Positions 38,753 through 62,817 of a stretch of DNA of 64,000 nucleotides are shown here, one piece after another (position 1 is the stretch's first letter; each line of letters starts with the position of its first letter). The position numbers were made by a program, and so were the translations under genes. The notes beneath the pieces were generated by a model that was given only the letters and a program-made list of their open reading frames with translations, was not told where the DNA came from and made no database searches. The DNA comes from Opisthocomus hoazin (lineage: Eukaryota > Chordata > Aves > Opisthocomiformes > Opisthocomidae): NCBI RefSeq assembly GCF_030867145.1, contig NC_134415.1, forward strand, positions 18,454,417 through 18,518,416. Direction: 5' to 3'.

Positions 38753-38841
38753 CTAAGTGAGAGTCACCATGTGGTTGGGATTTAAAATTTCAATCCAGTA
38801 GCCATCAGGATCTTGAACAAATGCAAGTCCTTTCATTTTAC
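38753..38841 (-). CDS. GLO1: GLO1 coding exon 6 (C terminus and stop)
   Basis: This encodes [20 protein letters not shown] and then NPNHMVTLT, with the TAG at 38,753-38,755. Glu172 (in YWIEI) matches the fourth zinc ligand of human glyoxalase I. The acceptor is CTAATAG. It completes a protein of 183 residues against 184 in human. Confidence 0.95.
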
Positions 38842-40750: not shown

Positions 40751-40886
40751 GAAACATTCTAGGCCAGGATGGACAGGGCTCTGAGCAACCCGATCTAGTT
40801 GAAGATGTCCCTGCTTACTGCAGGGGGGTTGGGCTAGATGGCCTCTAAAGGTCCCTTGCAACCCAAAGCATTCTGTGATTCTATGG
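40751..40886 (+). mobile_element. CR1 element E, 3' tail in a GLO1 intron
   Basis: This contains GAAACATTCTAGGCCAGG, GGACAGGGCTCTGAGCAACC, TCTAGTTGAAGATGTCC, GGGTTGGGCTAGATGGCC and a terminal ATTCTGTGATTCTATGG. It is only the non-coding 3' end of a CR1, antisense to GLO1. Confidence 0.88.
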
Positions 40887-41088
40887 ACTGATTAACTATT
40901 GTTCCCGAGATGGATCTGTTGTCAGTTTTGCCCACTGTGTAAGAAGGTGCAGGGGTAGCTGGTTCTAGCACCTTCTAAGCAGTGACAACTACTAGAAACG
41001 CATTACCCAGCTTTGCAGGAAGACCTATCAGATAGAATATATTAAAAACAAGGAAAAAAAATGACTTGCATTTCTGATCAAGACTTAC

Positions 41089-41178
41089 CATCATCTGGTT
41101 TCTTCACAAATTTCACTCCTAGTTCTTCAAACCTCTTACAGGCTTTATTGACATCAGGGACAGCAATACCAATGTGTC
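41089..41178 (-). CDS. GLO1: GLO1 coding exon 5
   Basis: A 90-base exon encodes [20 protein letters not shown] and then [11 protein letters not shown]. His126 in GHIGIAV matches the third zinc ligand. The acceptor GTCCAG and donor GTAAGT are standard, and the phases fit exons 4 and 6. Confidence 0.95.
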
Positions 41179-42290
41179 CTGGACAACAAGGTAAAAAGAG
41201 TGAAGTACACTGTTAAGTATTGCTGAGTGTTCTATAAAAAAGTTTGCTCAGCATTTCATCTTATGCAAAAAGTTTACATGCTGTAGTTCACATAAGATAT
41301 GATTGTATACAAGAAAAACATTGCTTCCAGAAAGAAGAACATTTTGGGTATGAACATTATTCTCCTTCAGAAAGCTGGCTTTTTTACATAATGCCTTTTA
41401 AAATAGGAACTTTAGAGTTAAAATACCTCATATTGTTTAGACAAGAATATTATCTAGAGTAGGAAAAAGTAAGATTTTCAATCAAACTTTTATATTTCCT
41501 TTCTCGAAGTATGCCCACATAACAGGATTTTGTTTCATTTCCTCAGTTCAACAGCACAAGGAGTTTATAATTAATGCCGTATTTGTAGAGACTAACACTA
41601 GCACTGTGCAAGGCCTGAGCTTACAAATCAATTCAGAAGCTTTAAATGTCAAGTGGCTAGACTGAGTATGAAACTTATTTCACAAGCCAGTGACCTTTCA
41701 AGCACTCAAAATATCAAATCGAGCCACACAAGTACTATCCACAGTGCTACAAATGGAATTCTCCTTCTAGCTTAGAATGGGTAACCAGTGGATCATAAAA
41801 TAGAAATCCAAACATAAATCAGTCTAAACATCATGATAATGTCATACACAAGAGCAATTACTATTTAGTTACTATTAGCATGTGTTTGCTTGCCAAATGA
41901 TTAGATTCTTTATAAAAAGTGTAACTGTGGCTCATTACTCTGAAACACATTTGTTTACTTCTTTCTACTGTCTTTCACAGCTTACATCCTGGAAGAAGAG
42001 AGATATAGGATGAGGTGTAAGTTCCCTTCTTTCCTAATGCTAGCATGTTTTCTTCAAAGTAACCTACTAGAAAAGTCTTTTCATCCATACAAGTTTAAAA
42101 TATTTTCGCTACTAGTTCTCATAAAAATAAAGCCTACAGTATACACTTACCCAATAGCCTTTGCACAGAATTTATATAGATGTTTTCTAAAAAACATCTG
42201 AAACTCTATTTTTCCCCAATACACAAGAGAAAAAATGTAATCACAATAAATCAAAGCTTAAAAACTATAAACACAAAACTAAAGACTTAC

Positions 42291-42358
42291 CAAATCCTCG
42301 GGGATCTGAATTGCCATTGTGGTAAGACTGGTTTTGATCATTTTCAGTGCCCCAGTTG
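42291..42358 (-). CDS. GLO1: GLO1 coding exon 4
   Basis: A 68-base exon encodes [20 protein letters not shown] and then RGFG. NWGTE and [13 protein letters not shown] are hallmark sequences of animal glyoxalase I, in the loop contacting glutathione. The acceptor is TTACAG and the donor GTAAGT. Confidence 0.95.
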
Positions 42359-43140
42359 CTGTAAGAAGTAATTATTGCATATTGAAGAAAAACATTGAAA
42401 TTAACAAAACCTAGATGTTCAGTTTCCCCAGGAGGGTAAGTCGTTTCTCCTAAGAAACCAGAGAATTTCAGCTGTTGGCTGCATTCATTAAACTATGAAG
42501 ATTTCCCCTAGTCATAGGCCCTAGGGCTAATCCAGTCACGTTCCCAGCCCTTCACTGGTACTCAGGTTCTACATCTGAATGAGTCGGAGACACTCAGATC
42601 AGAGAGAAGGTTGTGCTGCATGAGTCAGTTTATCTACCCATCACTGGGGAACAAACAGGAAGTGTAGCAGATCCTGAAGCTAAGCAAGACAGTGGGGTAT
42701 TTGGGAGATTCTTTCTGCACAGTTACAGTGACTAGTAGCATTAACCACCTGTGCATGCTTTGACTCCATACCTCTTTTGATTAGATTCCAAAAGCAGCAG
42801 TTATCCATTATCAGGATGCTCTGGGGATCCAAAGAAAGTTCTAACCACCTCGGGTTTTCCTAAATTCTGTGGCTTACCTACCCAGATGGCATGCATACTC
42901 AAAATACAGCAAGCATTATTTCATATTTATGTACCACCGGTCACCTTGCAGTTTGAGAGAGCTCTGAAAAGGTTAAGCTGCCAGGTATCCAAGATCTCAG
43001 CCATATTTTAAGGCTATATGACAGTAAAATGTAACCATTGCTGTGGAAACATTTTTTATTCAATCCAACAGGATTTACACTCATCCATTTCTGTTTAATT
43101 GCTGTTAGATAATGTCATCTCTCATTATATTAATACTTAC

Positions 43141-43281
43141 TGTGTCAGTTCAAGTGTAGCTTTTCTAGAGAAGGTCCAAGCTGTTCTCTCAGTTTTATCT
43201 TTTGGGATATCATTTTTATCTTCATACGCCAGGAAATAGAGCGAGAACTTCATAGTAGGAAAGTCAAATTTTTGAAGCAGT
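43141..43281 (-). CDS. GLO1: GLO1 coding exon 3
   Basis: A 141-base exon encodes [40 protein letters not shown] and ATLELT. Glu99 in ATLELT matches the second zinc ligand (human Glu100, counting Met). The acceptor is CATTTAG and the donor GTAAGTA. The frame is intact. The stretch [12 protein letters not shown] is more diverged from human than the rest, as expected of a surface loop. Confidence 0.95.
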
Positions 43282-44669
43282 CTAAATGGCAACAATTATT
43301 TTGAAATAGTAACTTAGAAAGGTAATCAGCTTGCAAATAAATCAAGATGCTTCCCTCATGGAAGAATTATGGCTGTGATTTTTTGCCTTTCTGACTGTAA
43401 TCCACATCTTAAAATAGCTACATTTTGAACTATCAAATAGAAACACTCCAGAACACATTACAAACCTACAAAAATTAGAAGAATCAGATACTTAAAAGCC
43501 AAACTATCAGTAACTGAATAGCAAAGCCAGTACAAAGGCTCACATCTTGAGGTTGTTACTCTGTTACTTCTCTGCACTTCCTCAGGAAGATCTTTATGTT
43601 TATCCACTTTAAAATACCACCAAGGAATTAAAATATTTACTTTGAAACTTACTCGTTCTGGGGAGCTTACTGGCACCAGAAAAAGTTCAAGAACAAAGCA
43701 GGATTAAAACCCAAACACACCTTTAGATGAAATATTTTTACAATTTCAATAGCAAGATATAGGATAAAATCTATTTCACATGTGACAATTTAATTAACTA
43801 AAAAATACCTGAGGTCAGAAAAAGCTGATTATAAATTTTATCCCTTTGCTAGATACAAGAAGCCACCCACTTTCCTGTGAAATATTTGGTACATCTCTGT
43901 TTTCACCTAATTTCTAGAGATGGTGTGGCGTACTTCAAACCATTTTTATGTTGGACATGTAAACCAGAAAAAAGTGGCACACAAAATGACTCTAATTTCT
44001 TTTGCAGCTTACTAGGTATTTAATTTTTATTTTCTCGCAGCCACATCTTCACTAAAGTGGAAGTAGTTTATTTTACTGTAGTCTGGACTTATTTCAAGAT
44101 GTTTAAAAATATGCTAAATCTTGTTTTGAAGTAACTCATTTCAAATGTCAAGAATGTGTACAGAGACTTAGCATCAACACATTAGGCTACTGCAGGGCAT
44201 CTGCCTCCAACAGCCTTCTCTAAAAAACTGAGTTTGGACCCTGTCTCCAGCTTCCATTGCCTTGGTCTCTCATGACTACAGCTGGTCATAAGCCACCTCT
44301 GAGAACTAGAGGAAAACTTAATTTCAAGAGTTATAGCAATGACCATTATATAAGCACTGTCATAAGGGTCACCAGTTAGCTACAGGCTCAGTGAGGATGA
44401 AGTAAGCAAGTTGTACACTGATAATTAATGACCTATTTAAGAAAAAAAGAAATTTCTGGTCAACGCCAATATTAGTTCATTTGCAGCTTAGGCATTAACT
44501 GTGCTGTGGGAGTTCTCAGAGATTGCCAAACTGTCCAACAGGGCATCAGCTGGTGGGCTGGCATCGTTTATGTAGTTAGACCAATTAGTATAATTACATC
44601 AAAATAACAAAAACTTCAGAAGTGTAGTAGGAGAAGCCAAATTTATTGTTGCATACAACTTCTACTCAC

Positions 44670-44752
44670 GTCATTCCAAGAACTCTTGTATAAAAGTCCA
44701 GTGACTTCTTAGGATCCTTTACTCTTAACATCGTCTGCTGAAACAAAAAATC
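44670..44752 (-). CDS. GLO1: GLO1 coding exon 2
   Basis: An 83-base exon encodes [20 protein letters not shown] and then YTRVLGM. It contains Gln33 (first zinc ligand) and Arg37 (binds the glutathione part of the substrate in human GLO1). The acceptor is TTCCCCAG and the donor GTGAGT. Confidence 0.95.
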
Positions 44753-45429
44753 CTGGGGAAGAAAAGGTTTATTATTTACACATCAGCCAGGATTTAATTA
44801 AGGATATTAACAAAGATGCCAAGTTAATAATGAATCTAAAACTAGCAGGTTTAGAAGTAACAAATTACTACAATTAGTGTAAATAAAACCTTTTGTCCTG
44901 ATCTACACATACAGATATGTTACATAAATGTGCCTTTGTAACATAATGTTTAAAACAAATAAAACTGCCACTGGTATCACTCAATACATATTATCTGAGG
45001 TATCAAAAAAAGGGTATCATTCTTCAGTATTCTTTCATGGAGCTGTACTGCACATGAACCACTTTGCATTTAAGCACACGAGGCATGTGAATATTTAACA
45101 TTGGGCCTGACTGGAGACACAGAGTTTAAATAAAACTAAATTCCTGAACTCATTATTTGTATTATTTCATTGCACGGGTGTCGAATTTCTGACAAGCTGG
45201 ATGAGACCTCGGCAGCAGAAGCGGCCTGCAGTTCTGTCAGGGCGCTTTCCTCCAGCCGCGGGGTAACGCTGGGTACCAAGGGCTCAGGAACAGTTCAGTG
45301 GTTAAAAAGCGAACGTTACGATAGCCTCGACAGACGAATTTAAAAGAAAAAAGGCGGATGCAGAACAACTGGAATGCAATGACAAGGCTCTCCAAATAAA
45401 AAAATAAAAACGTTTGGAGTGTTTTGGGG

Positions 45430-46720
45430 GTTTGGTGGTTTTTTTTTTGCAAACCTGGCCCGCAGGCCCCGACCCGCCGGGCGAGAGGGGCGGGACGGGA
45501 CAGGACGGGGCTCAGGGCGACGGGCCCAGCAGACTTGTCCCGCACCACGACCGTGAAACGAGCCGGGCCGGCCGTCCCCGGGCCGCTCTCCCCGCACAAG
45601 GCGGCCGGGCAGCTCCCCGCCGAGCCCTCCCCCATGCTGCCTCCCATCCACCGCACGTCCGCCCGGCAAAGAGCAGGGGGGGGCACCGGCACTGCCGCAG
45701 ACCCTCCCGGTGCCGGCAGCCCCGGAGCGTCCTCGCCACCCACACCCACCCCACCTTCGTGCTGGCATCCGGCTCCGAGCAGGCGCCGTAGGCTGCCTCG
45801 TCTGTGAGCCCGCTGAGCTCTGCCGGGGCCGCCATGTCGGAAACGGAGCAGCTGGAGGTGCCCGCGGGAAGGCGGTGACCGCCCCGCTCCGCCCCGTTCC
45901 GCCCCTCGGCTGGGCGGGCCGCAGCGAGCCGTGCGGGCGCGTCCAGGGCTGCCAGTTCATTGCAATGAGCGTTAACGGGGAGCAGCGCCCTGACCGCGGA
46001 GTTAACAAGCTGACGCGCGCAATGAAGCCGCGGGCCCTCCGCGCTGGGCTGACGGCGCGTCCGCCCCGCTGCCGCCCGCAGGCAGAGCGCGCCTCGCAGA
46101 CGCCTGAAGCGGGCGCCGGTGTCCGCCCCAGGGGAGCGGGGCTTTGCTTGTAAACCCTTCCCGCTGGCGGCGTCTGAGGGCGGCTTCCAAGCCCGGCCGT
46201 GCGCCCCCAGCCTTGTTCGCAGAGAGACCCGCGGTGCGCTCGGTGTGGCGGTGAGGGGTGCTGGCCGCTGCCTTCGCCGTCCGTTTCGGTAACTGAAAAC
46301 ATTACCTCGATCCTGCGCTTTCCCAGCGCGGCATTCTCGCTGCGTTACTTAACTTTGACTTCCACAAGCACGTTTAAAACCAGTCCCCGACCGAGGGACT
46401 CTCACGGCACGTCGCACCGCACACCTCTTCGGTGCCCAGCGCGGGTCTTCACGGCAGAACGACGGCTCCGGTTCTGGCGGCCGGGCCTGCGCGTGGCCGC
46501 AGCGGCGCCTGCGGCTCCTCGGGGGGAGAGCGAGCCCCGCGGCGGGCAGCGCCGCAGCCGTTACGGGCTGCTGCTGTAACGGCCAACGCCATCGCGGCCT
46601 GGCGCGGACGGATCTCCTCGCGGGGGGCCCTGCAGCCGCCTGCCGCGTCTGCTGAGGGGGCAGCGGCTGGTGGTTGTTCGGGGGGGGCTGCTCCCCTCTC
46701 CCCGCGGCGTGAGGCATAGC
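45430..46720 (-). promoter_or_regulatory. GLO1: CpG-island promoter of GLO1
   Basis: A CpG-dense block covers the start codon of GLO1 and about 0.9 kb upstream. Three GC boxes (CCGCCCC on the plus strand, GGGGCGG for the gene) are spaced exactly 10 bp apart at 45,879, 45,889 and 45,899, some 45-70 bases upstream of the ATG. This suggests Sp1/KLF binding on one helix face and a TATA-less start nearby. The many long frames within the island have no family resemblance and are GC artefacts. The left breakpoint of the inversion lies about 220 bases beyond the island's upstream end. Confidence 0.8.
45755..45835 (-). CDS. GLO1: GLO1 coding exon 1; lactoylglutathione lyase (glyoxalase I)
   Basis: GLO1 converts the hemithioacetal of methylglyoxal and glutathione into S-lactoylglutathione in the cytosol, the first step of the glyoxalase detoxification pathway. 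It is a zinc-dependent homodimer (established). The start ATG is at 45,833-45,835, and this exon encodes 27 residues, including SGLTDEAAYGACSEPDASTK, before a GTGGGGTGGG donor. The six coding exons (81, 83, 141, 68, 90 and 89 bases) join without a break into 183 residues, with all four zinc ligands (Gln33, Glu99, His126, Glu172) present. The gene looks functional. Order and strand relative to BTBD9 match the human locus. Confidence 0.95.
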
Positions 46721-46940
46721 TCCAGCCAGGTGGGTGAGCCGCTTTATCCGCACCGCCGTGCCAAGGGCGGAGAGCTGGTCAAGGCACCTCAGCTGTCCAC
46801 AGGAGAGCCAGAAGTCTGTCCCCCCCACGCTTTGTGCTTGGGAATCCTCCGCTTTCCCTTCCCGCCCTCACCTCATTCTCCTGCACGCTGAGAGGTGCTG
46901 GAAACCAGGCTCACTTTTCTTGCGTGAACAGGTCCAACAG

Positions 46941-47450
46941 GTCCAGCTTTTCATCCACCAGCACCCGCAAATCCTTCTCAGCAGGGCTGCTCTCCATCCC
47001 TTCACCCCACAGCCTATATTAATACCGGGTGTTGCCCTGACCCAGGTGCAGGACCTTGCGCTTGGCCTTGTTGAACTTCATGAGGTTGTCATATGGGCCC
47101 ACCTGTCCAGCTTGTCCAGGTCTCTTTGGATGTCATCCTGCCCTTCTGGTATGTCAACTGCACCACTCAGCTTGGTGTCATCTGCAGACCTACTGAGGGT
47201 GCACTCAATCCCGCTGTCTATGTGATTGATGAAAATATTAAACAGTACTGGTCCCAGTACAGACTGCTGAGGGGCACCACTTTTCACTGGTCTCCATTTG
47301 GACATCAAGTCATTGACCACTACCCTCCGGATGCAGCCATCCAGCCAATTCCTTATCCACCGAACAGTCCACCCATCAAATCCATATCTCCCCAATTTAG
47401 AGAGGACATAGTGGGGCACCATGTCAAAGGTTTTACAGAATTCCAGATTA
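46941..47450 (-). mobile_element. CR1 element F, 5' half (separated from its 3' half by the inversion)
   Basis: On the minus strand this reads as the middle of a CR1 reverse transcriptase: [35 protein letters not shown], a catalytic-loop motif [23 protein letters not shown], then in a shifted frame FNKAKRKVLHLGQG. It ends with a block encoding LVDEKLD (GATGAAAAGCTGGAC) at 46,941. There CR1 similarity stops abruptly and unrelated DNA follows. The next bases of a CR1 would encode MSRQCALAA; these are found at 59,730 on the other strand. The 5' end, at about 47,450, is an ordinary 5' truncation, only about 30 bases from the DNAH8 exon donor. Confidence 0.85.
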
Positions 47451-47478
47451 GATGACAGATGATGAGAAGCATACTTAC

Positions 47479-47592
47479 AAGATCACAGTTATAAAGTGGC
47501 TGACAAACTTTTTCAAGTGTGTGTAAGTATTTCACATTATCTTTTGATTCATTTGCTGCATCTGTGATTCTGGCTTCTAGCTCTTGCCACAT
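47479..47592 (-). CDS. DNAH8: DNAH8 local exon 8 (last exon before the inversion breakpoint)
   Basis: A 114-base exon of 38 codons: [38 protein letters not shown]. The acceptor is CCTCTAG and the donor GTAAGTATG, phase 0. In related dyneins the next residues are [13 protein letters not shown]; these are not downstream on this strand but are encoded at 62,710-62,817 on the plus strand. CR1 element F begins about 30 bases beyond the donor. Confidence 0.93.
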
Positions 47593-47925
47593 CTAGAGGG
47601 AAAACAGTACTGTAAAAAACTTCATACATAGTGAATTATTTCTTTAACTTGCACTGATTTTCTGGAAGTAAACTTTGGTAAATTAATTTTTAAAAGGCAT
47701 TGTCAAAGCAGGCAATAAAATTTATTTTCATTTACGATAATTTTTGTCTATATTTCTCAAAATATCTTATTCTTTCTCTTACTATATTAAGCACACCAGC
47801 ACCACACCTAAATTTTCCACTCACTTCTCAGGAAATCTCTCTTTGATGCAATGAAACAAAATAAATATTGCAAGCTTTGTCTTCTATATTAAAAATTAAC
47901 ATAAAAAAAGAAAAACAATAGTTAC

Positions 47926-48102
47926 CCTTAGTAGTTTAGAATGTGCAACATTCAGAACATTAATGACAGCTTTGCAGTTTGGTCCTTTGATGTGCTCAAT
48001 AATAAAATTAAATTTAGCAGACATACATTTCCAGTGCTCTAGTTCAGTCAGCGGACCTGAATCATCAGCTTCTTTCCTCATCTGCTTACTCTCAATCAGA
48101 AC
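47926..48102 (-). CDS. DNAH8: DNAH8 local exon 7
   Basis: A 177-base exon of 59 codons: VLIESKQMRKEADDSGPLTE, LEHWKCMSAKFNFIIEHIKG and PNCKAVINVLNVAHSKLLR. This is the exon that most clearly distinguishes DNAH8 from DNAH5, where I recall a different residue pattern (ADDVGPRAELEHW). The acceptor is GTTGCAG and the donor GTAACT. Confidence 0.93.
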
Positions 48103-49091
48103 CTGCAACCAATTTGAAAAAAAAAACCTAAATATCTACTATAGAGAATAAACAAATTATTATAAAGAAGAGAAGAAACACTCTGAGAATACCAAGTTAA
48201 AAAGGAACAAGCTTGCAGTTACTGACACATGAAAATGGTTCTGATTTGGAAAAGTATCCTAAGTCTGAGTTGTACTTCATGATATTCTTAAACTGAAATA
48301 AAGGCAACTAATATTCAGCTGCTGTCATAAACTGGGTGAATCTCAGCATACATCCATATTTTTTTCTTTAATCAGAATCTATGGATTGAAATGCACCAAA
48401 TGTAATTTCACTTGTAAAAAAAACATGAAGAAATATTTTAATAAAAACTTGAAATATCAAAGCACAAATGTACTGATTTGTATGTTGCTAAACATGCAGT
48501 CAGCTCTTCTTACGTTCTTTTACATTTTTACTGTCGTGAGCAAGACACACTAAACATAGTATGTTCTTATAAGTGGAGTATGTCCCAGCCTACGCAGATT
48601 CTGTATTTTGGCAAAGGGTTCTATGCTTTATCATGGAAGTCTCAGATATTAATTTCTTGGATAACTGAGACCTTACCAAGTAAGATTGACACAGGATCAA
48701 AAATGCCCTAATGAGACTGTTCAAAGATCTTTCTAAGAGTAGTGTCTCACATCAACGACTGGCAGGAGAAACTTAACAGGTAAAGTATAGAGTATACCTA
48801 ATTGTATATATATGTGGTCCTTGCCAGTGTTATTACTCCTGCATCCTTCTGTCCTCTCCTTCTTATTATTTGTGTATTAACTGTTCAGAAACTCTTATTC
48901 TTGCTAGACTGCAAGTTCCTAGGGATAAGGACTACCTACTTAACTTCACTTGTGCATAGAAGTGAAGCGCTACTCTTACTCATGCGGACATACAGTTGAA
49001 GCCTTCAACTGACTTCAGGCAACTCTCACATATCACTTATAAATATCTACCCATATTCATGCTTGACTGATATGTTAAAACAACAATTTAC

Positions 49092-49255
49092 CCATTCAAT
49101 TTGTCTATACCATATCATAAATACTTCCTCTAGCTGGTGAACCATGTCAGGATTATCAGCTGCTGCAGTTACTTTCTCAAAGGACCAGAGTTCAGAAAAA
49201 TTAATATAATCTATGTTTTTCAACTCAATAGTTCCTTCAATGCTTATTACAGCCC
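49092..49255 (-). CDS. DNAH8: DNAH8 local exon 6
   Basis: A 164-base exon encodes GGAVISIEGTIELKNIDYIN, FSELWSFEKVTAAADNPDMV and HQLEEVFMIWYRQIEW. The phase requires the donor to be TGG then GTAAAT, giving QIEW joined to VLIES of the next exon. Related dyneins have Gln rather than Trp at this junction. Confidence 0.9.
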
Positions 49256-49626
49256 CTGAAAAAAAAAAAAGCAATTACAATACAGAATCAACTAAGACTC
49301 TAAAATTAATTTCTACTGGTGTAAGCAACTCAAATTTGGGAATACATGTCTGCAATCTGTGTTGTTTCAATATAATAGCCATTTACTGCACACATACAAA
49401 ACAGAAAATTCTTACTTTAAATCTAGTGTTCCTCCTCATAAGTAACATATCACTGGAGAATTTTCTTAAATAAATAATTGACCAATGCATTTATTAAGGA
49501 AGCAACTGATAGTTTTTTTCTCCTTGCAGAATGGGAAAAAGTCCTTACCTATGTGCTACTGACTTTAAACGGAAATACTTAAGTTAAATTCCTCTGCTTT
49601 TATTGTTCTCTAAATGTAATGTTTAC

Positions 49627-49816
49627 CGTCTAAAAATGAAAGGTATCTGTTAATTGTTTCCATGAAATTCTGTTTGTCTTTTGTATCTTGTTTGGTCTGA
49701 CTTAAAGCACCCCAACTATTTGTTGCGAGGATAGCAGGGAGAATAATCTTTCCTATCATATTCCTAACACCACGTAGAAGTCCTTCAGTGGCATCCAAAA
49801 CACCAAAGAATACATC
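49627..49816 (-). CDS. DNAH8: DNAH8 local exon 5
   Basis: A 190-base exon encodes DVFFGVLDATEGLLRGVRNM, IGKIILPAILATNSWGALSQ and TKQDTKDKQNFMETINRYLS, ending FLD. LPAILATNSWGALSQTK is a strong dynein tail signature and closer to DNAH8 than DNAH5. The acceptor is ATGCAG and the donor GTAAAC. Confidence 0.9.
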
Positions 49817-51157
49817 CTGCATTGTAACAGAATGATTGTTAGTAATGCAGTAACTTAGACCGAAAACAGTATTACAAAATCAGTGTATTTTTTATAGAGG
49901 CAATCTAATCTGCCAATGAAAACTTTAATTTAAGGAAAGAAAATCTTCACAAAATACTGGTACCTACAGTGTGACCCCAAGATATTGTTTTCAACAAAAA
50001 AGGGAAGTCAGTAATGATTTAACACAGTTTTAAAAGGCTGCCAGGTCTTATATTTGTAACTTCAGTTATTTCCCTACTATACAAAATGTTTGGAAATTTT
50101 TTAAATAGTACATAGCAATTAAAAATAATGTCCCCTTCTACAATTAGGTACTCAGTAATGAAATGCAAGTAGCAAAAATGCTCTGAATGTACATATCTGA
50201 AATTACAATAGAAGCAATTATGTGACTGAATGTATATTACTTTGGATCAGATGAAAGTCTTGTCTACTCTCCAAAACGAAAGTTTACAAGTTCTGACAAT
50301 TTTTACTATTCCAATATTTTAATTGTCCTTCAAAAATTAACACACTTCAAATATTAACATACTTCACATAACAAACTTCCTAGAACATAAATTTCCTTTT
50401 CTCATCATTTCAGCAAGGAATCTGATGTGAAAGTGATATTTATAACCAAATTGAGACTCTTGATAAAGACAGATCTTGTATCTTCCTTCTAACAGTGCTT
50501 TTTCCCCTTCACCTTCTCAGCTCTCAAAGGGAGTAAAACATTTTTAATATATAAAGTATATAAATTAATAATGGATTTTCTGTCTAAAGAATGTGAAATT
50601 ATATTAATGAGAAGATACATATATAGGACTGATTCCTGTCAATTTACTGTCCCTTGAACACTGCCCGAGTTCTAAGATGTGTAGCTATAAACGAGAACAA
50701 AGCCCACACTTATCTAATAGTTTTACATAGACATAAAGCAGAAAAACTCATGCTACATAATTTACATAGGATATACGTGTATTTTACCCTTTCAAAGATA
50801 CATAAAAGAGAATGGTGCAAGTAAACTTATACTCTCCTGGCGTTTGTAATAAAGTCTTTTCAGTACTTAGTGGCTTTAAACTCTTCAAAAACAGCAAGGA
50901 GAATGAGAAATTAATCTAAAGGCTGACTTCTTTAACAAGAGTCCTGTAAGACACTGAATTCACAAGATATCCTGAGTATTTGCTGAAGTAATACAGCTAT
51001 TCATTGTCTATCCAAAAAGGAGACCAAAGCGCATGATACAGCTTAACATTTAAAAAACGTATTTACCAGTAACTTATGTGCAATAGTGAAAAAATTATGA
51101 AACAAAATTATCTACTTTTAAAGTTTTTTGTTTTTAAAATAATGCGTAAGAGAATAC

Positions 51158-51306
51158 CTCATGTATAGTTTTTGCACTTATAGGGCTGTCATTCTTACAA
51201 CGAATGAAAAATAAGCATAGTCCTACAAATTGGTGTGGTGTATTGTCCACATACAGTCGCATCATTTTACTTCCTTTTACAACTCCTGGAATTGTCCGAC
51301 CACATT
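51158..51306 (-). CDS. DNAH8: DNAH8 local exon 4
   Basis: A 149-base exon encodes CGRTIPGVVKGSKMMRLYVD, then NTPHQFVGLCLFFIRCKNDS and PISAKTIHE. CLFFIR followed by a KTIHE-type helix corresponds to the VCVFFIR region of the DNAH5 paralogue. The acceptor is TTTTCAG and the donor GTATTC. No stop. Confidence 0.82.
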
Positions 51307-52143
51307 CTGAAAAGAATTTCACAGATGTCACTATTTTTACAAGAAAGGGTATTAGAAAATGCATAAAATTCTTATAATGAAATCAGCTTCAGCATAGAAA
51401 TAATTTATTTTCTTCTTTTGTGTGTAAGAGAAGGAAAAATGGCAGAATCTGCAGCTGTAATTAGCCACACAATTAAAAAGCTACACCTAACACATATCTC
51501 TTACAAAGCAATTTTGGCACATTGCACTGAAAAGGGAATTTGCTCAGGCCCATCACGCTGGGTTAATCTGCTGGTGACTGAGGTACTTTATTTGCATTCA
51601 CCCCATCAAACTAGCTGTCATGCCTAAGTGAGAAAATAGAGAATATGAGATACCCTCAGATCCTCTGTGGATATAATCCTACGCAATTTAATCATTTCTT
51701 AATAATATGTAAGGGACCAGCATGTTCAGCGCTTACAGAAACATTAGGGATTTTAGACATTAAATCCTAATTCTCTACCAAGCATGTGAAAACTAAAAAA
51801 TTTCAAATATTTATAATAAATGCAATTTCGGACAGGCTTTATATAAGTACTTTCTAATGAACTGGGGGCATGACTCCTGTAAGTATAAGTTGCAACTGCT
51901 TTAAGATTTCAGAAGAACTTCTCTTTTTATAGCCCTCCTTCCAAGAATGGCTGAAATTTACCACAATTTTTCTAAACTATTTCATTTTAAGCAAGCATTT
52001 AAAATATGAATTTTCAGTCCTTATAGCAAAGACTGCAAAATGATGAACAAGTCAAACCAGATTTTATTCTGGGAAACACTAAATGAAACTAACAATAGAA
52101 GGCATTATTACATCTGCCTGGATTAATATTGCTAAAAATTTAC

Positions 52144-52228
52144 CTGTTCCTGGTGCGTCTCCTTCTTGATAGAAAACTTTCAATGTTTTACTTCCTCCCT
52201 TGGCAAAGAAAGAATCAAAGGCTTCCAA
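52144..52228 (-). CDS. DNAH8: DNAH8 local exon 3
   Basis: An 85-base exon encodes LEAFDSFFAKGGSKTLKVFY and then QEGDAPGT. FFAKGG and FYQ are typical of the DNAH5/DNAH8 N terminus. The acceptor is TTTAACAG and the donor GTAAAT; it ends in phase 1, matching local exon 4. Confidence 0.8.
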
Positions 52229-55171
52229 CTGTTAAATCAAAAAGTGAGTACTAGTTACTCAAAATAATAAATATTTACATGCCTTTAAGAGACGCAAAAA
52301 TAATTTAACCATGCTACTGTTTAAAGTTGTGGTGGCACATGACGTTTATCCTCAAATACTGTGAGGAGTTGCAAAACAAATAGGTATTTTAAATATTGCC
52401 TTCAAGAACTGAACCTGCACACACATGTGACCTAGCTCCTGATAACTGCATATCAAATGTTTATGGTCTTGTCCAGCAATGCAGAGACACTGGAGGATAT
52501 TCTGTCACTCACAGAGATCTGCAAGTCGAAAGTATCAACTGGAAGTAACTGGTCATAATAGACTTAGAAACACACAGAGCAGATTTTCATGACTTGACCT
52601 ACTCTGCCATTGCTACTCTACACCTAAATGTAAAAGATTCATTTGTAAAACACGAGTAGCATGGCACATGAAGATTTTATTCTAGAGACGTGAATTGGCC
52701 ACATTGGCTCCAAAACCTTTTCATGACAACAAAGATTTTTCCAGCCTCTGGAAGGACAATGAGATCACATCTGAGGGAGACAACACTGACCCAAAATTAG
52801 CTTGCTGTACCTGTCCATAAACCAGCCACCCTAAAACACTATGGGTCTCTAGATGGATATTTTGATGTTGTCATGTTATACAAGGTGCTTTGGATAGTAA
52901 GGATGCAAAGCTTTGAAACAAACACTATTTGTGTATGGATTGTCACTCTGAAGATCTTGCCTGAAATTGTACCTAGGGTTTCCAAAATCTGAATTTTCAA
53001 ACTGCCCTAGGCAATTATGTGTCCTGGTAAAACCAGGATATGTGATTTAGCAGGAGGTGAACAAAGCTCTGAAAAGCACTGAAGGCAGGTTTGGAGGAGA
53101 TCAGAAGGTACCGATCTGGTCAAAATCCAGCTTCTTTCACAGCTTCTTGTAGTTATCTGCAGGGATGACTAACTCCACAAGATGTGGACTAGGAATTCAA
53201 ACTGTCCAACTGAAGGGCTGAGTCTTGGCAGTGAGACCTCCTGCTTTCCTCCTCATCAAAAAAGTCAGTAATTTAGCTAGCAAGTATTTCTGGAGATGTA
53301 TCACCTGTTCAAGTACAAAGCATACACCTCTAAATGTGGTATACTTCTTGTAAGCACAATTTTTTCCTCCAAAATAAACAAATATAAACTCTGAATCAGA
53401 ACAGTGATAGGAAAATGAGTGACACTTGGGCAGGCAGAAATTAAACCTACTCTTTTGAGAGGACAACATTGTTGAAAAATAAAAGAACTAAAAGCAAGCC
53501 AGTTCTAGAAATGCATGCTGTGCTTTCAGTTTGGTTAACAGGCACTGATGAGTAACAGGGTTAGAACTGGGAAAAATACAGAAAAAATCCTCCCAAAAAT
53601 AGTGAAAGAAAAGAAAAATTGGTAAAGTACTGAAAGGGCAATTATAAAAATCAGAAAAAGATTCAACACTGCAAAAAGCACTCCAGCTTCAGAGGAAGAG
53701 AAAGGCAAACTGTAACTTTCGAACTTGTATGATTTTACACAGGAGGTAAGAGATGTGTTGTCCCTGTGGCTATTGCTTCTGCAGAGAGCTTCTGGTTCAA
53801 GTCCGTGTGGTACAAACACTCACTGTGTGAATATACATATAGGCTAATGCTTTAAAGGGTAAAACTTAACTCACAGATGTCACAGGCATGATATGTATAT
53901 GGGAATTTAGTAACTGTCAACTTTTTAAATGACAATGTTGACAGAGCCCCAGCATCCTAAACTGTTTATGAATAAACTAAAACTGGAAAATTTCCAACCA
54001 TAAAATGTTTTCAGATGGTCCTAGTGACAGCAACCCCCCCCAACCCAATCGAATCTGAAAAAAAGCCTTAAGAACCCAAAGGTTCTCAAGTGTCAGAATT
54101 CATCAAACTCAGTGTAGAACAGCAGTTTTACATGAAGTCAGGATGATCTAAAACTATACACCATCTAGCAACCATAAAAAAAAGAAATGTTAGTTGACTG
54201 ATAACACTTTAAGCACCTCTGTGTTGTGTAAGCATAAGGAAAAACAGGACTGTTTTAGTATGTTTTATGACATATAAATATCAGGAAACAAACAATAAAC
54301 CACAAATTTGGACTAGGATTAAATTTGGCTTGTAACTGAAGGCCTGAAATTCTAACAATCAATTTGTTTGCTCAAAGGAGACAATATCTAGCTGAGTTTT
54401 GAATGCTAAGTCAAATCTCTCTAATAGACAAAAATAACATCATGTAATCAGTGAAGGCAAGCACCATATCTTTTCACATATAGCCAGACAGAGTCTTGAT
54501 ACTCTACTAAAAGTACAGTTTAGCTAGATGCTCCCATTTGTTCGAGCACTTTGAAACAGTAGGAGAGACACAACACTAAAGATACACAAAGAATGACTGA
54601 CCTTTCAGAAGTTCCACAAGTTTGGGACCTACTCACTCTACAAACCCACTTTATCCCATCTTTTAAATATTCAAAAATAAACAAAGCACTCAAACCTGGA
54701 AATTATTTAATGGGTCTTTCCAAAAGTAATTTTCCCTCCTATTACTAGATAACACGTAATTTTTGAAAATGTTCCTACGAAGTTACACATATTTTTGCAG
54801 AATCTTTAGCATTTCAGTAATGACTAGCTTAGCAAATGAAGACTATTATCTTTACAACATAATAATGTCAGGCCGAGATGGACGAAACGTGTTGGAACTG
54901 GTGGATGTGACAAGAAACCCTTGGATAAAAAGAAGAGCAGTACCTATATTTTCTTTGAAAAAGGCACAATCAAAAACCCTGGGAATATTTACAAATCTGC
55001 CAGGAAACTAAGCTGAATAATTAGTCGGGTATCATATTAGATGAGTTGTGTGCCTTATTAATCACAATTTCTGGCAGAAACAATATAAACAATATAAATT
55101 ATTCATATCAAAGGAGTGATCTGCTATGTATTTTGACTAAAAATTGAAATCGACAGACAGCAAAGACTCAC

Positions 55172-55306
55172 CAAAGGGGCATCCAAATTCATTTCTTCCA
55201 CAGTTATTAAGTCTAAACCTAGACTGATACTGAGAACTTCAAATATGTATTTATATGAAGCATCAACTTTCCTTCTTCAATATTCTCTGGCTTCTTTGTA
55301 TCGAGC
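55172..55306 (-). CDS. DNAH8: DNAH8 local exon 2 with in-frame stop
   Basis: A 135-base exon, phase 0 at both ends. It reads ARYKEAREY, then TGA (55,277-55,279), then RRKVDASYKYIFEVLSISLG and LDLITVEEMNLDAPL. The sequence after the stop is clearly dynein N-terminal and stays in the same frame, so the TGA is a point change, probably from a Trp codon TGG. The acceptor is TTTTAG and the donor GTGAGTC. In-frame AGs just after the stop (for example GAAGAAG) have no pyrimidine tract and are unlikely rescue acceptors. Confidence 0.7.
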
Positions 55307-55959
55307 CTAAAACATTAAACATGTCTTTCAAACTAAAAATACACAAAGTGATCCTAACAATAACCTGCTACTTAACTTCAAACTAATGCTGAAATCTACT
55401 GTCTTGTATTATAAGACTACGTAACTTCCCTACTCTTTAAAAATATTTAAATTTTCAGAGGCTAATGGAAAAACAAATTATTAGGAACTATTATAATATG
55501 TAAATTCAATTCTGATGATATGTCAAGAAAGAGCAAACTTTAAATATACTACAGCTAGATTTTAAGATATTTGTGTGTCATATTAACTGGTTTTATTTTT
55601 CACAATATTTTAATTTATTATATTAATACAGAAATATCACATATCAATTTAAAACTAAAGTATCTAGAGTGGGTAAATATTTGCAGGAACTAAGCTGGGT
55701 ACAACTTTGCTTCAGTGTACATTTACCAGTTAATATCTCCTGCTTCCTTCCTTTATTATATTAAAATGTTAAAATACTGTAAATGTTAAAAACAAAGGGT
55801 CATTCACTTTCTACCAGGAATAATTTAATAAAAGAACTGAATATAAACAAAAAGGAAAAAGAAAGGAAAAGAAAAAAGAAATAATTAGTATAAACTGAAA
55901 TTAACAATCTGAGAAAAGAACCGGAAATCTATTTCAAGACCTAAGGTTGAATACTAAAC

Positions 55960-56255
55960 CTGTTTTTCTTTTAAAAATTCTTGCAAGGAAAGAACTCTAC
56001 CAGCGCTTTGGCAAAACCTAGACAGACTGTGGCTTGCAACAGATAAAGACCCTTGGGAAGAGGAAAAGCTGTCTATTTGTCGAGTATGGCAAATAGATCT
56101 GGCTACAGCATCTTTTGGTGTAACAACAGCAGGCACGGAACTCTCCGCAGTGAGATTAGGCCCAGCACTATTTGCGGCAGCATAACTGGGCCCAGCATCT
56201 TCTCCAGCGTTTGAACTTTCTTTATTATTTTTTCGTAACCCCTCCATTCTGAAAT
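55960..56255 (-). CDS. DNAH8: DNAH8 local exon 1 (N-terminal tail, possible start)
   Basis: The acceptor (poly-T then TTCAG) precedes 56,255. An ATG at 56,245-56,247 opens 96 codons: MEGLRKNNKESSNAGEDAGP, a low-complexity Ser/Ala-rich stretch with SSSQGSLSVASHSLSRF, and then SLQEFLKEKQ at the donor (CAG then GTTTAG, a weak donor). The N-terminal extension is poorly conserved, so its assignment rests on phase and position before the next dynein exon. The frame is also open upstream of the ATG to the acceptor, so translation could start in a still more 5' exon that I did not find. Confidence 0.6.
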
Positions 56256-56456
56256 CTGAAAAAAAAAATTGCATTTATAATAATCCAGATTTTTCAAGCC
56301 TACCTTTTCAGGAAGACCAGAAGGAAGAGCAAAGTAGGTAATAAAACCATGAAAAACAAGAGTGTCTCAAAACTGACTTCCCGTATAGATAAATATAACA
56401 GCCTTATCAAGTCCTCTTCAAGTTTCTGAGATAACAGACATTTATATACATTTATA

Positions 56457-57826
56457 TCCATCCCGGGAAAGGTAATGAAGCAGCTTATCCTGGAGGCCAT
56501 CATCAAGCAAGTGGAGGAAAAGAAGGTTATCAGGAGTAGTCAGCATGGATTCACCAAGGGGAAATCACGCCTGACCAATCTGATAACTTTCTATGAAGAC
56601 ATGACTGGCTGGGTAGACGAAGGGAGAGCCGTGGATGTTGTCTACCTCGACTTCAGCAAGGCTTTCGACACAGTCTCCCATGATATCCTCCTAGGGAAGC
56701 TCAGGAAGTATGGGCTGGATGAGTGGTTGGTGAAGTGGATTGAGAACTGGCTGAATGGCAGAACTCAGAGGGTTGTCATCAGCGGCGCTGAGTCTAGTTG
56801 GAGGCTGGTAACTAGTGGTGTCCCCCAGGGGTCAGTACTGGGCCCAGTCTTGTTTAACTTCTTCATCAACGACCTGGATGAAGAGTTAGAATGTACCATC
56901 AGCAAGTTTGCTGATGACACCAAACTGGGAGGTGTGGTAGACACACCGGAACGCTGTGCTGCCATTCAGCGTGACCTGGATAGGCTGGAAAGTTGGGCAG
57001 AGAGGCACCTGATGAGGTTCAGCAAGGGCAAATGCAGGGTCCTGCACCTGGGGAGGAACAACCCCATGCATCAGTACAGGCTTGGGGTGGACCTGCTGGA
57101 GAGCAGCTCTGTGGAGAGGGACCTGGGTGTCCTGGTGGACGACAGGTTAACCATGAGCCAGCAGTGTGCCCTGGCTGCCAAGAAAGCCAATGGGATCCTG
57201 GGGTGCACCAAGAGGAGTATGGCCAGCAGGACGAGGGAGGTTCTCCTTCCCCTCTACACTGCCCTAGTGAGGCCTCATCTGGAGTACTGTGTCCAGTTCT
57301 GGGCTCCCCAGCTGAAGAAAGATGAAGAGCTACTGGAGAGAGTCCAGCGGAGGGCTACGAGGATGGTGAGGGGACTGGAACATGCCTCCTATGAGGAGAG
57401 GCTGAGGGAGCTGGGCTTGTTCAGCCTGAAGAAGAGAAGGCTGCGAGGGGACCTAATATATACTTACAAATATCTGAAGGGTGGGTGTCAGGAGGATGGG
57501 GCCAAGCTCTTTTCAGTAGTGCCCAGTGACAGGACAAGGGGCAATGGGCACAAACTGAGGCACAGGAAGTTCCATCTGAACATGAGGAAGAATTTCTTCC
57601 CTCTGAGGGTGACGGAGCCCTGGAACAGGCTGCCCAGGGAGGTTGTGGAGTCTCCTTCTCTGGAGATATTCAAGACCCGCCTGGACAAGGTCCTCTACAG
57701 CCTACTGTAGGTGACCCTGCTTGGGCAGGGGAGTTGGACTAGATGACCCACAGAGGTCCCTTCCAACCCCTACCATTCTGTGATTCTGTGATTGTGTGAT
57801 TCTGTGATTCTGTGATTTTATGATAC
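56457..57826 (+). mobile_element. CR1 element G, young 5'-truncated copy just upstream of DNAH8 local exon 1
   Basis: This begins within the RT ([20 protein letters not shown]) and stays open for 411 codons from ATG 56,475 to the TAG at 57,708. It has [28 protein letters not shown], a catalytic [10 protein letters not shown] and a C-terminal region ending LDKVLYSLL. It matches element C with 5 differences over 122 bases near its start (56,487-56,608). The 3' end carries several ATTCTGTG octamers (57,774-57,823), slightly expanded and diverged. It lacks the endonuclease and is not autonomous. Confidence 0.93.
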
Positions 57827-59697
57827 GTTACAAATGCCAAGTTGAAGATGATTACAGAAAGATTTTTTAAAAATAATTTACCATGCATTCATATTTTCTG
57901 GAATGAACGCCTTTCCATATAATAAATAAATTTTTACAAATATTAATACTTTCACTGAATATCTGATTACTGAGAAACAGAGATCGTTTCGAATACAAAT
58001 GACCTGTTTAAATTTCAGTTAGCAGTATACACACACATATTCAGCAACTGAGCTTACAAAAAGGCTTGCACACACTTCCATACCAGGTCTTAAAGCATGG
58101 CTCACATAAGCACTTGCACATCATTTGTACAGAAATGCCTGGCCATGCATAATATACTCAACATGTGTAAGTGTTTATAGAAGTAATGCAAGATGGAGGG
58201 TGTTGGGTAGTATTTTTTTCAGTGGAAAAAAATTTAATTTATCATCAGACATCTTCAGCATAATGAAACAGAGTCAGAATTTCTCTTAATTCTGGGCCTA
58301 AACCATGGAATGCTGCAGTTCATAGGGAACAGATACCATTCTTCAACAGGAGAAAGGCATTTCTCAGTCCATCTTCTGGTGGCCAAGGACTAGCAGGTTA
58401 GTCGTCCTACAGGAGGATTTCTACAATGGCCCAAAACAAAGTTTATTCGTGGCTGACTGTGAAGCAGTAGGCTACTATGCAAAGGTGGCTCCTTCCATTT
58501 TCTTCCTCTTTCTACTACACTAGCACATCAGCCTAGGAAAGGTTTGATTTGTGAATCCCAAGCCCATAATTCAGGGCTAGAAAGAAGCATCTAAATGCTC
58601 TCTCTCCATCTTTTCCTATTATGGGGCATACTCAACCACTTGCATGTGCTAGCTGCCATCAATCCTATTCGGTAGATCTTAAAACTCCTAAACTTATATA
58701 GAAAATTAAATGTTTTCTTCAGTGTGCTCAAATCCACACATGAACCGAGCAACTAGTTATAAGGCACTGTAATAATCAGTAGAGCTATACCTAAAGTCTT
58801 TACCTTGTGTCTAATTTTTCCTCTAAAAATAGCTTGTTCAGTTTCATAGGGATGTTATAATACATAAAACAAATGCTAAGATATGTCATTAAAGTCATAC
58901 CCAGGATAACAGCTAAAAGCAAAAGCACAGGAATTGTTATTCTACTCGGAGTACTATTACTGTAACAATTAAAATAACTACCAAGAATTACCTGGGAGCT
59001 CTTGCACAACCTTAGGACAGCCAACCACACGTGTAACTGTGTTCTGTACTCCCTTAGACACTACTGCCTGATTCAGGAAACAGATAATCAGAAGCGAAAC
59101 CAACCTGAAAAGCAACACCTGCTCCTACCCTACTAGTTCCTTATTTTTGCTCATGATTAGTGAAGTGGCCACTGTTCTGTGGACTTTGGCAGGCAATCAG
59201 GTGTTACAGAAAACATTCGTCTCTTTCTCAAAATAAAAATACTAAGAAAAAAAACCTTAGGAAAGTCACAAAAAAAAGGGCAAATGTAAAATCTATATTA
59301 ATTAATTCCTTTCTTTCCCTTCTTCTCTGACCGGGCTGGTCACCTCTCAGGTTAGCAGGGGTACTTTCCTCCTTGACACTCAGGCAGAATAAGTCGGATG
59401 TGAATTTCCTTGCCTGTTAACTGGTCCCCTTAAAGTTGGACGGTGAAGTTGATACCGTTCCCTGAAGCTCAAGGCGAGAGCGGTGGGGTTCTCACAGCTT
59501 TCTTTAGAAACAAAGCACGCTGTATACTGGCATCCTCCCTGACTCTCCAAGCACTTGTACCCACCGTGTCTGGCGGCTCGGGTGAGATTTTCACACTTTT
59601 CGAAAACCAGCATGAACTCCAGCTGTCTACCTATCGTAGCTGTAACGGCTGATGTGCTTTTGTATTAAAATCTCCCTTCCTCCCTTTCAGAATGCCT
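57827..59697. other. DNAH8 upstream region (inside the inverted segment)
   Basis: About 1.9 kb with no recognised gene. Before the inversion this would have been the GLO1/DNAH8 intergenic region. A moderately GC-rich patch near 59,370-59,640 gives open frames on both strands without recognisable products. Confidence 0.5.
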
Positions 59698-59719
59698 AAA
59701 TGTTGTCTAGACAACATTT
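59698..59719. repeat. Perfect 22-bp palindrome beside the inversion breakpoint
   Basis: The half-site AAATGTTGTCT is followed directly by its exact reverse complement, with no spacer. It ends 7 bases before the shared GGAC at the right breakpoint. Confidence 0.95.
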
Positions 59720-59725
59720 GTGTCA

Positions 59726-60373
59726 GGACATGAGCCGGCAATGTGCGCTTGCAGCCCTGAAGGCCAGCCATCTCCTGCGCTGCATCAAAAGCAGTGTGAC
59801 CAGCAGGTCGAGGGAGGTGATTATGCCGCTCTACTCCACTCTAGTGAGACCTCACCTGGAGTCCTGCATCCACCTCTGGAGCCCTCAGCACAGGAAGGAC
59901 ATGGAGCTGCTGGAGCGGGTCCAGAGGAGGGCCACAAAACTGATCCGAGGGCTGGAGCACCTCTCCTATGAGGACAGGCTGAGAGAGTTGGGCTTGTTCA
60001 GCCTGGAGAAGAGAAGGCTCCAGGAAGACCTTATTTCAGCCTTTCAGTACCTGAAGGGGGCCTATAGGAAAAATGGAGACAATCTTTTTAGCAAGGCCTG
60101 TTGTGACAGGACAAGGAGGAACGGCTTTAAACTAAGGGAGGGTAGATTTAGGCTGGTTTTAAGGAAGACATTTTTTACAGTGAGGATGGTTAAACACCGG
60201 AATGGGTTGCCCAGAGAAGCAGTGGAGGCCCCATCCCTGGAAACATTCAAGGCCAGTTGGAACAGGCTCTGAGCCACCCGATCTAGTTGAAGATGTCCCA
60301 GCTCATTGCAGGGGGGTTGGACTAGATGGCCTCTAAAGGTTCCTTGCAACCCACAGCATTCAATGATTCTTTA
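59726..60373 (+). mobile_element. CR1 element F, 3' half (separated from its 5' half by the inversion)
   Basis: The element starts abruptly at GGACATGAGCCGGCAATGTG and encodes DMSRQCALAALKASHLLRCI, then [60 protein letters not shown] and on to FKLREGRFRLVLRKTFF, with a stop at 60,270-60,272. It closes with TTGGACTAGATGGCCTCTAA and a decayed terminal ATTCAATGATTCTT. CR1 coding sequence normally has LVDEKLD just before MSRQCALAA; that piece is at 46,941 on the other strand. The RT frame is intact from the breakpoint to its stop. Confidence 0.87.
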
Positions 60374-62709
60374 CGCACAGTGTAGGTATTTACGTAGAAT
60401 GCCCAGAGCAAAGAAATCTTCTTTGTATTTGCTTAAAAGTAATTTTTTCTAATTTACTTCTCTATTTTTCTATTTTTTTTTCTAAACGCCTGTGAAGCTA
60501 AATGTTCAAGCATTAGTTTATTATATACAACATAAAATATATTTTAAAATACATATTTTATCAATAATCATATATCCATATGATTGCCTAGTAATTTCTT
60601 TCATTGAAAATTCCACATCAATCAATAATCACACAGCTGTAACCGAAGTACCAAAATTTCAGTTATATAGTGAATAGTGAAACTTAATGAGGCCCTAATT
60701 GGGTAAAATAATATTTTTATATTGAAAGTAGTATTAGTTGCTTCTATTTGCAGAAGTACCAGCTAGTTAGAATTTAAGTAATTGGTTGTCCACTAATCAG
60801 CCCTACTTCAAGGTACCAGTCATTAGGTGTATTGACTATTAACTATGATAACAGGTACATGTTTCTAATGATTGTTGCAGAAGAGGATGGAAGGAGGAAA
60901 TACTCTAGGAAAAATTGCGTGTTCTGCTTTGGTTTTTAGTCCTCCTTGTTTTGGTCCTACCTGCCTCCTGTCCTCTGTCAGGAAGTGTTGCATTTCTTTT
61001 GAATTTCTGGCAGCTTAGGATCCTACTTCAAAGTTTTAACTGAGGGGAAGTGAAAAAACTGTGATTATATATGACATAGAGCTGATAGTGCGTGAAATAG
61101 TACAAAAGGAATATTATAAACAGTATTAGTAAGAAGCTTTTTATCTTCAGCTCTTCAGAGTATCACTAGGGGGTGCTAGGTACCAGGCCATAATAATGAG
61201 CTGCTTTGTAGGAGCTGTTAAGGTAAAATTCTTTTTGTCTTAAGCAAAGACAGACATTTGTGGGTGGAAACTCATTAAAGAGTTCATCATTTTTCTAATA
61301 CAGGTTAGTTAGCTATAGTTCTTTGTTAAATTTGGATACATCTGAATTTCTGTTTTGTCTCTTGGAACATTGTTCCTGAGATCAAAATAATTTAGGTAGG
61401 ATTTTCATCTTAAAAATAACGACATCCAAGTTAAATATATCCTGTTTTAAAAAGAATGACATTCTGGATTGAGTTGAATTTAATATCTGATATTGAAAGG
61501 TATTTTAGATATTACCAGATCAGGAATGGAAAACATGCAGATTTAATGTGATACGCATGAAATTTGGCATTTAGTCTATGCAGTATCACATATAATCACA
61601 TTTGTAACTGAAGTGCTTTACTATATGAAAATTTAGACTGAGAGTTTAGCTGAGGGCTTTGAATCAGAGAAATCTCTATGCAGTCTGGTATTCAGGTTTC
61701 TATTTACTATCAAGGATTAAAAAAGAAAACCCATAGACTCAGAATCTCCAGATTCCATTTAGGTGGAGGGGATGGGGATGGTGGCTATGATGAACAACAT
61801 GTGCACACTGAAGGTTTTTTTTATATCGTATAGCCTTTCTTTCACGCTCTTCTACCAAATGCAAACGCCTGCTCTGTCTACCCACAGTACTGTTGTGCTT
61901 ACTTTGAGTCTGCAGCCCAAAGTTAATTCCAGGAGCTTGCCCTCTCTATTGAGGGGTGACAGTCAAAATTACTTTTTCTTGATGTTCTGCATTTCAACTC
62001 TGATAAGTCCCTGACAATGTTAACGAATTACCATGTTTTAATGTTTTTATTTCTCTTTTTTTCCAAAATACGGTTGAAGTGGTCGAATTACAGAATACTT
62101 GTAGTACCATGGTTTTATTTTAGTGATAGGAACAACGATTTCATGAAATGTGTGAAAGATTTAGATGTTTCATATGATAACTGAATGAATTAGGCACTCA
62201 TTAATGAAATTAACATTGTGATAATTATTTCATGAGTTTTGTGAAATGTCTGAACAAAATGTTTTATGAAACGATTGTTATCACAATGTAATTGTATAGA
62301 GCATATTTAACAGCTGTATATGAAGGAAAACAAAAGCATTAATCACAGACAGTCACTGGCAGCTAGCAGAAGACTTCCTTTTGTGCCAAAAAATTGCAAC
62401 CTGTACTTTTTGAATCAATGATCCATTTTGATCATCGAAATAGCATATTAAAATATTCATATTATATCTTTAATCTGATTTCTTACCAAATCATCCAAGT
62501 ATTTTATGTTTTTATTAGTTGAGTTTTAAAAATCTAATGAGCATGATCAGCTTTTCTTTTTTTTTTCCAAGAAACCTTTTGGTAAGATGCCATGGCATTT
62601 TAAAGATTGGTTCATATAATTTAGGGAAAAATGTAATTTAGAAGTTGTCAATTGGAATCATAGTTGCTAAGAACAGAAACAAAAATTTTTCTCCAAACTC
62701 TGCTTTAAG
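60374..62709 (+). other. DNAH8 intron upstream of local exon 9
   Basis: AT-rich sequence, outside the inversion, in the orientation of the rest of DNAH8. It contains an imperfect stem-loop at 62,208-62,294. No other gene or repeat family is recognised. Confidence 0.6.
62208..62294. repeat. Imperfect inverted repeat (stem-loop)
   Basis: Arms of about 40 bases: AACATTGTGATAATTATTTC on the left pairs with the complement of GAAACGATTGTTATCACAAT on the right, with a core CATTGTGATAA/TTATCACAATG match. A related arm-like sequence (ACAACGATTTCATGAAATGT) occurs about 75 bases further left. This could be a small palindromic DNA-transposon relic or a hairpin-forming element. Confidence 0.5.
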
Positions 62710-62817
62710 GTATCAATGGCACGTGGAATACCAAACTTGATAAATGCTATACGAATGATTCACAGTGTTTCGAGATATTACAATACTTCTGAGAGAATGA
62801 CATCATTGTTTATAAAG
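62710..62817 (+). CDS. DNAH8: DNAH8 local exon 9 (plus strand)
   Basis: A 108-base exon of 36 codons: [20 protein letters not shown] and [16 protein letters not shown]. This is the conserved dynein tail segment that follows [12 protein letters not shown] in DNAH8. The acceptor is CTGCTTTAAG and the donor GTAAACAT; phase 0 at both ends fits local exon 8, which ends in phase 0 at ...CDL on the opposite strand. It is too short for ordinary frame scans and was found by reading the strand for dynein peptides. The next exon (VTNQ...) was not found before the window ends. Confidence 0.9.

Follow-up and report, generated by a model that had tools for sequence, protein, structure and literature searches.

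DNAH8 of the hoazin is very probably a unitary pseudogene and appears to be split by a 12.8-kb inversion

Introduction

The outer arms of mammalian sperm are described as being of a single type, formed by DNAH8, its gamma heavy chain, and DNAH17 (PMC7909641). Biallelic DNAH8 mutations in humans cause outer-arm and flagellar defects and severe asthenoteratozoospermia (PMC7909641). Eel sperm have a 9+0 axoneme, and the eel is described as one of the organisms without some axoneme components, the example given being loss of the outer arm dynein (PMC4415241). This report concerns DNAH8 in the hoazin, Opisthocomus hoazin. Its first nine coding exons lie in a stretch of 64,000 nucleotides (contig NC_134415.1, positions 18,454,417 to 18,518,416, assembly GCF_030867145.1), which is called the window here. 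Exons 1-8 and exon 9 are on opposite strands, and lesions along the gene make it very probable that hoazin DNAH8 is a unitary pseudogene.

The hoazin gene resembles that of the DNAH8/DNAH17 sperm outer-arm dynein (mammalian outer dynein arm type 3) in that it is DNAH8 by sequence and by neighborhood. Loss of human DNAH8 is a disease, whereas hoazin DNAH8 appears to have been lost long ago. The eel provides a precedent for a lineage whose sperm lost outer arms. Unitary pseudogenes are remnants of single-copy genes that decayed with no prior duplication. Like them, hoazin DNAH8, an ortholog located beside GLO1, has many independent lesions, has unbroken predicted orthologs in other birds, and yielded no further copy of DNAH8 grade for the parts searched. 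In contrast to them, its lesions include what appears to be a balanced inversion that divides the rest of the gene from its first exons and probable promoter. No account of DNAH8 loss in a bird was found by title or by the opening of the abstract in a literature collection that mostly excludes subscription journals.

Results and Discussion

The 5' end of hoazin DNAH8 points away from the rest of the gene. A splice audit with Strix DNAH8 (P0004) as guide and a tblastn search with Numenius arquata DNAH8 (P0001) placed the exons, whose coordinates are given in Table 1. A preliminary description of this DNA had proposed eight leftward exons and a ninth on the opposite strand, and this was borne out (56,247-47,479 on the minus strand and 62,710-62,817 on the plus strand). 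It had also proposed that exon 8 ends in phase 0 at ...CQPLYNCDL and is continued by exon 9, and relatives do join these residues directly. All seven introns between exons 1-8 are GT-AG introns that fit the guide, one of them with a 6-nt length difference. The exons after exon 9 are on the plus strand past the window, and they reach about 192.0 kb from the window start (about 128 kb past its end). Bovine DNAH8 (PDB 9fqr_I3) crosses the border between exons 8 and 9 ungapped (CQPLYN-DL followed by VSMA), and the two exons are contiguous in each of the 26 sauropsid proteins that were aligned (25 birds and one gharial). These proteins were picked from 120 listed of 1116 matches. The bird entries P0009, P0011, P0027, P0031, P0034, P0038, and P0100 were omitted from the alignment, and P0027 lacks exons 7-8.

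The gene is orthologous to DNAH8 and not to its paralogue DNAH5. An exon finder with human codon frequencies was unsuccessful in the AT-rich DNAH8, while a version based on amino acid composition succeeded and provided the database query. Among the 120 best matches to the bird-exon query, the named proteins were nearly all DNAH8. The peptide derived from the exons, with some intron residues included, matched bovine DNAH8 with an E value of 7e-151 and human DNAH5 with 5e-75. Exons 1-9 favor DNAH8 over DNAH5, and GLO1 is adjacent; a paralogue on C3, elsewhere in the assembly, favors DNAH5 instead. Chain I3 of PDB 9fqr aligns as bovine DNAH8 but goes under the name Cilia and flagella associated protein 57 (CFAP57) in the PDB, and the UniRef entry P0059 bears the same label.

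Both halves of DNAH8 contain inactivating lesions. The gene was followed into the 200 kb that adjoin the window on its right, with coordinates continuing from the window start, and lesions were read against Aquila DNAH8 in 78 blocks with 4183 aligned codons (the block ends overlap). Six premature stops lie within conserved exons (55279, 73885, 110945, 115255, 157935, and 172420). They are bordered by matching residues on both sides, except that 110945, close to where its exon starts, has only two to its left. Stops flagged at 55956 and 160296 were discarded, as they are located past splice donors. Three frameshifts of one base each lie near 67442, 72491, and 127045, and the longest homopolymer in their contexts has five bases. 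Four blocks are missing: amino acids 827-853 (P0001 numbering), and 2028-2086, 2150-2522, and 2699-2814 (P0004 numbering). In the corresponding intervals, a search for these blocks at a low threshold gave only chance-level matches. The sole Strix match over 823-855 was misplaced at 119.9 kb and was also at chance level (E 0.72). The missing parts of the guide include GPAGTGKTE, GPSGSGKT, and GGRNDIPQ, the first two of which we take to be the AAA1 and AAA2 loops. Because the stop in exon 2 is within the flipped block and the others are in the 3' half, both halves have decayed. With the inversion included, the lesions number about fourteen.

No second copy of DNAH8 grade was found in the genome for the two parts that were searched. 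The 1.48-Gb assembly (415 contigs) was searched with exon 8 DNA and with a 382-residue missing block, and the best candidates were scored. Exon 8 matched itself and one sequence on C3 with 77% identity. The missing block had 42 listed matches, none above 85%; the best were on C3, at 96.59 and 71.19 Mb, in two gamma-type loci. Duplication of the 5' block of DNAH8 was rejected, as the search revealed no further exon 8. The locus at 96.57-96.65 Mb on C3 is DNAH5, with a 497-residue piece scoring 867 bits with human DNAH5 and 696 with bovine DNAH8. It served as a control. Read with the DNAH8 guide, it gave 38 matches over 2333 guide residues, including the last three of the four missing blocks. 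Stops occurred in 3 of the 38 matches; two were judged to be beyond the exon end and one was in a weak 29% match. The adjacent GLO1, a further control, is intact in all six of its coding exons. The second gamma-type dynein heavy chain locus (C3:71184779-71198995, plus strand) has five exon matches with 58-80% identity to DNAH8. Four of the five span stops, but so do four of seven at the DNAH5 locus, and hence this is uninformative on intactness. At C21:4.516 Mb, the match to human DNAH9 is slightly better than that to bovine DNAH17. Overall, hoazin DNAH8 shows the features of a unitary pseudogene, namely orthology to DNAH8, several independent inactivating lesions, and no intact second copy for either of the parts searched.

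An inversion fits the sequence at both joints and accounts for a split CR1 element. The CR1 beside exon 8 lacks its 3' end, and the missing part starts at the far joint, as is expected after an inversion through one element. Both CR1 parts match the same copies (86992-85850 and 149044-150187) consecutively, with 80-84% identity and with alignments overlapping by 7 nt. Within this overlap, an identical 4-nt stretch (GTCC/GGAC) is found at both joints, 46941-46944 and 59726-59729, so that the breakpoints first proposed (46,941 and 59,727) hold, the second to within two bases. The left joint also has a 9-nt direct repeat, AACAGGTCC AACAGGTCC, at 46928-46945, which is possibly a repair slip. Two balanced joints carrying reciprocal halves of a single element are what is expected of an inversion joined by microhomology. 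The split is probably derived in this bird, because gene predictions join exons of one strand and the exons are contiguous in relatives. Other related CR1 copies, about 91-97% alike, are located at 5068-8754, 32417-35083, and 56457-57796, and one of them has a long open reverse-transcriptase-like frame (56430-57707) within the flipped block.

The strongest alternative, though an unlikely one, is that the inversion is an artefact of assembly or reads and that DNAH8 is a pseudogene regardless. A 22-bp palindrome adjoins the right break, and this is a known setting for foldback artefacts. However, there are no gap letters at either joint, and the window as a whole contains no N. The joints share only four exact bases, and in the repeat search CR1 arms were listed close to each joint, whereas a long inverted pair linking the joint sequences was not. 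An artefact would also mean that both joints are in error in balanced ways that agree with each other. Given the lack of Ns and of any long inverted repeat precisely at the joints, an error caused by repeats or by scaffolding is unlikely. The inversion is probably present in the DNA of the animal. The test for an assembly error proposed in the preliminary description, long reads in the non-inverted order, matters for the inversion only. Because of the many other lesions, an error at the flip would not rescue DNAH8, and reads in the non-inverted order would leave it dead.

The protein sequence suggests that constraint on hoazin DNAH8 has been relaxed. Of 1838 sites that do not vary among the gharial and the other birds, hoazin has private changes at 96 (5.2%), three of which are stops. 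This is the highest of the 26 rows, and 10 of 25 other birds have 0.1-0.6%. The flipped block has 3 changes at 88 sites (one a stop) and the remainder has 93 at 1750, so the two halves are not clearly different. The hoazin branch length is 0.0996, compared to 0.0247 for Calonectris and 0.0173 for Sarcoramphus. In the DNAH8 protein tree the hoazin row is placed among waterbirds, raptors, and owls, with support of only 0.27 (FastTree) and 32 (IQ-TREE). The neutral rate is near 2e-9 per site per year, and at this rate the excess of changes roughly suggests that selection on DNAH8 has been relaxed for a time on the order of ten million years.

Several points weigh against the interpretation of hoazin DNAH8 as a pseudogene. 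Many private changes are also found in Cuculus P0039 (4.3%), Falco P0020 (3.3%), and Pezoporus P0029 (3.1%), reflecting either relaxed constraint or poor predictions. Near-full-length predicted proteins have longer branches in Cuculus (0.152), Pezoporus (0.146), Chaetura (0.139), and Phaethornis (0.104). Because of these branches and changes, rate alone is no proof of gene death. In the hoazin row of the alignment and trees, at least one match, 33 residues long, is due to chance, and this is too small to shift the figures much. The absence of the 27-residue block (amino acids 827-853) is uncontrolled, because the matches of the C3 DNAH5 do not cover it. Splice pairs compatible with the guide are present at every testable junction except that of frameshift 67442, although some pairs are weak and perhaps due to chance. 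Finally, the evidence comes from the assembly of one individual.

A rare or private inversion could instead have broken a working gene in this individual. The border between exons 8 and 9 is intact in all of the aligned relatives, which is consistent with a derived flip. However, the other lesions in both halves require a long period without selection, and a private break is very unlikely. The preliminary description had presented an inversion, in the lineage or the individual, as what disrupts a conserved gene. An inversion fits the sequence, but it is not the complete story of the disruption, as stops, frameshifts, and missing exons are found throughout, and DNAH8 probably died long ago in the lineage.

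The decay of DNAH8 as a unitary pseudogene would involve both rearrangement and smaller lesions. A balanced 12.8-kb inversion would have had one end in the intron 8 CR1 and the other in the flank on the promoter side, probably joined through the 4-base microhomology. It would have turned the 5' end of DNAH8, comprising exons 1-8 and the probable promoter, away from exon 9 and those that follow. The six stops, three frameshifts, and four missing blocks, including the AAA1 ATP-binding loop and AAA2, would leave no functional motor, inverted or not. The inversion may have killed DNAH8 or may be a later event. The loss is presumably fixed in the lineage, and hoazin sperm would use another gamma heavy chain or have none. 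It is fairly likely that the lineage is permanently without a DNAH8 motor and that its flagella beat either without DNAH8-type outer arms or by means of DNAH5 (C3:96.6 Mb) or the gene at C3:71.19 Mb, if intact.

The hoazin may be a natural DNAH8 knockout. Either outer arms would be dispensable in amniote sperm, or a ciliary paralogue would replace the sperm one. If so, the need of sperm for DNAH8, a rule in mammals, would not extend to all amniotes. The questions raised are what substitutes for the mammalian-type sperm outer-arm heavy chain and how hoazin sperm swim without DNAH8.

Table 1. Features of the DNAH8 region in the window (positions from the window start).
Feature	Position	Strand	Remarks
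DNAH8 coding exon 1	55960..56247	-	starts at ATG, MEGLRKNNK...; tblastn and splice audit
DNAH8 exon 2	55172..55306	-	in-frame TGA stop at 55279; 135 nt, multiple of 3
DNAH8 exon 3	52144..52228	-	tblastn and splice audit
DNAH8 exon 4	51158..51306	-	tblastn and splice audit
DNAH8 exon 5	49627..49816	-	tblastn and splice audit
DNAH8 exon 6	49092..49255	-	tblastn and splice audit
DNAH8 exon 7	47926..48102	-	tblastn and splice audit
DNAH8 exon 8	47479..47592	-	phase-0 GTAAGT donor; ends ...CQPLYNCDL
DNAH8 exon 9	62710..62817	+	flanked by AG and GT
Putative inverted segment, about 12.8 kb	46941..59729	.	DNAH8 5' flank with palindrome, coding exons 1-8, CR1 5' half
Split CR1, 5' part	46938..47448	-	3' end severed at breakpoint
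Split CR1, 3' part	59726..60370	+	starts at breakpoint
22-bp perfect palindrome holding GTTGTCTAGACAAC	59698..59719	.	RFX/X-box-like; 6 bases from right breakpoint
GLO1	38756..45835	-	six coding exons, open frames

GLO1 and the promoter region

GLO1 is now downstream of DNAH8 exons 1-8 on the same strand; in mammals it is also the neighbor of DNAH8. This arrangement could allow the flipped promoter to drive read-through into GLO1, yielding either a chimera of DNAH8 and GLO1 or a transcript of GLO1 in the testis. The exon 8 donor of DNAH8 and the acceptor of GLO1 exon 2 are both phase 0. On the minus strand, AATAAA is absent between 47,482 and 44,774, and a variant of it (ATTAAA) first occurs at 44,798, immediately ahead of GLO1 exon 2. 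However, the stop at 55279 would terminate a fusion protein unless the 135-nt exon 2 was skipped, and such a chimera is improbable, slightly more so than a private break. Expression of both halves followed by trans-splicing, as reported for split genes of Giardia (PMC8494341, PMC5224939), is the least probable of all, since the phase-0 donor of exon 8 and the acceptor of exon 9 are intact but neither half has an open frame (one stop in the 5' half and five in the 3' half) and loss of the AAA1 and AAA2 exons leaves nothing useful to join; like the break in a single individual, it was set aside because lesions occur throughout DNAH8.

The palindrome near the right breakpoint is a possible promoter element of DNAH8. 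It is the second longest perfect palindrome in 264 kb, and its GTTGTCTAGACAAC core fits what we take to be the X-box bound by RFX factors. The strict X-box motif occurs once in the 264 kb and in none of 100 shuffles of the window. Promoters of testis-specific genes in the mouse are enriched in RFX sites, according to a passage in which Dnah8 is not mentioned (PMC4745085). The flip would have carried the DNAH8 promoter along with exons 1-8.

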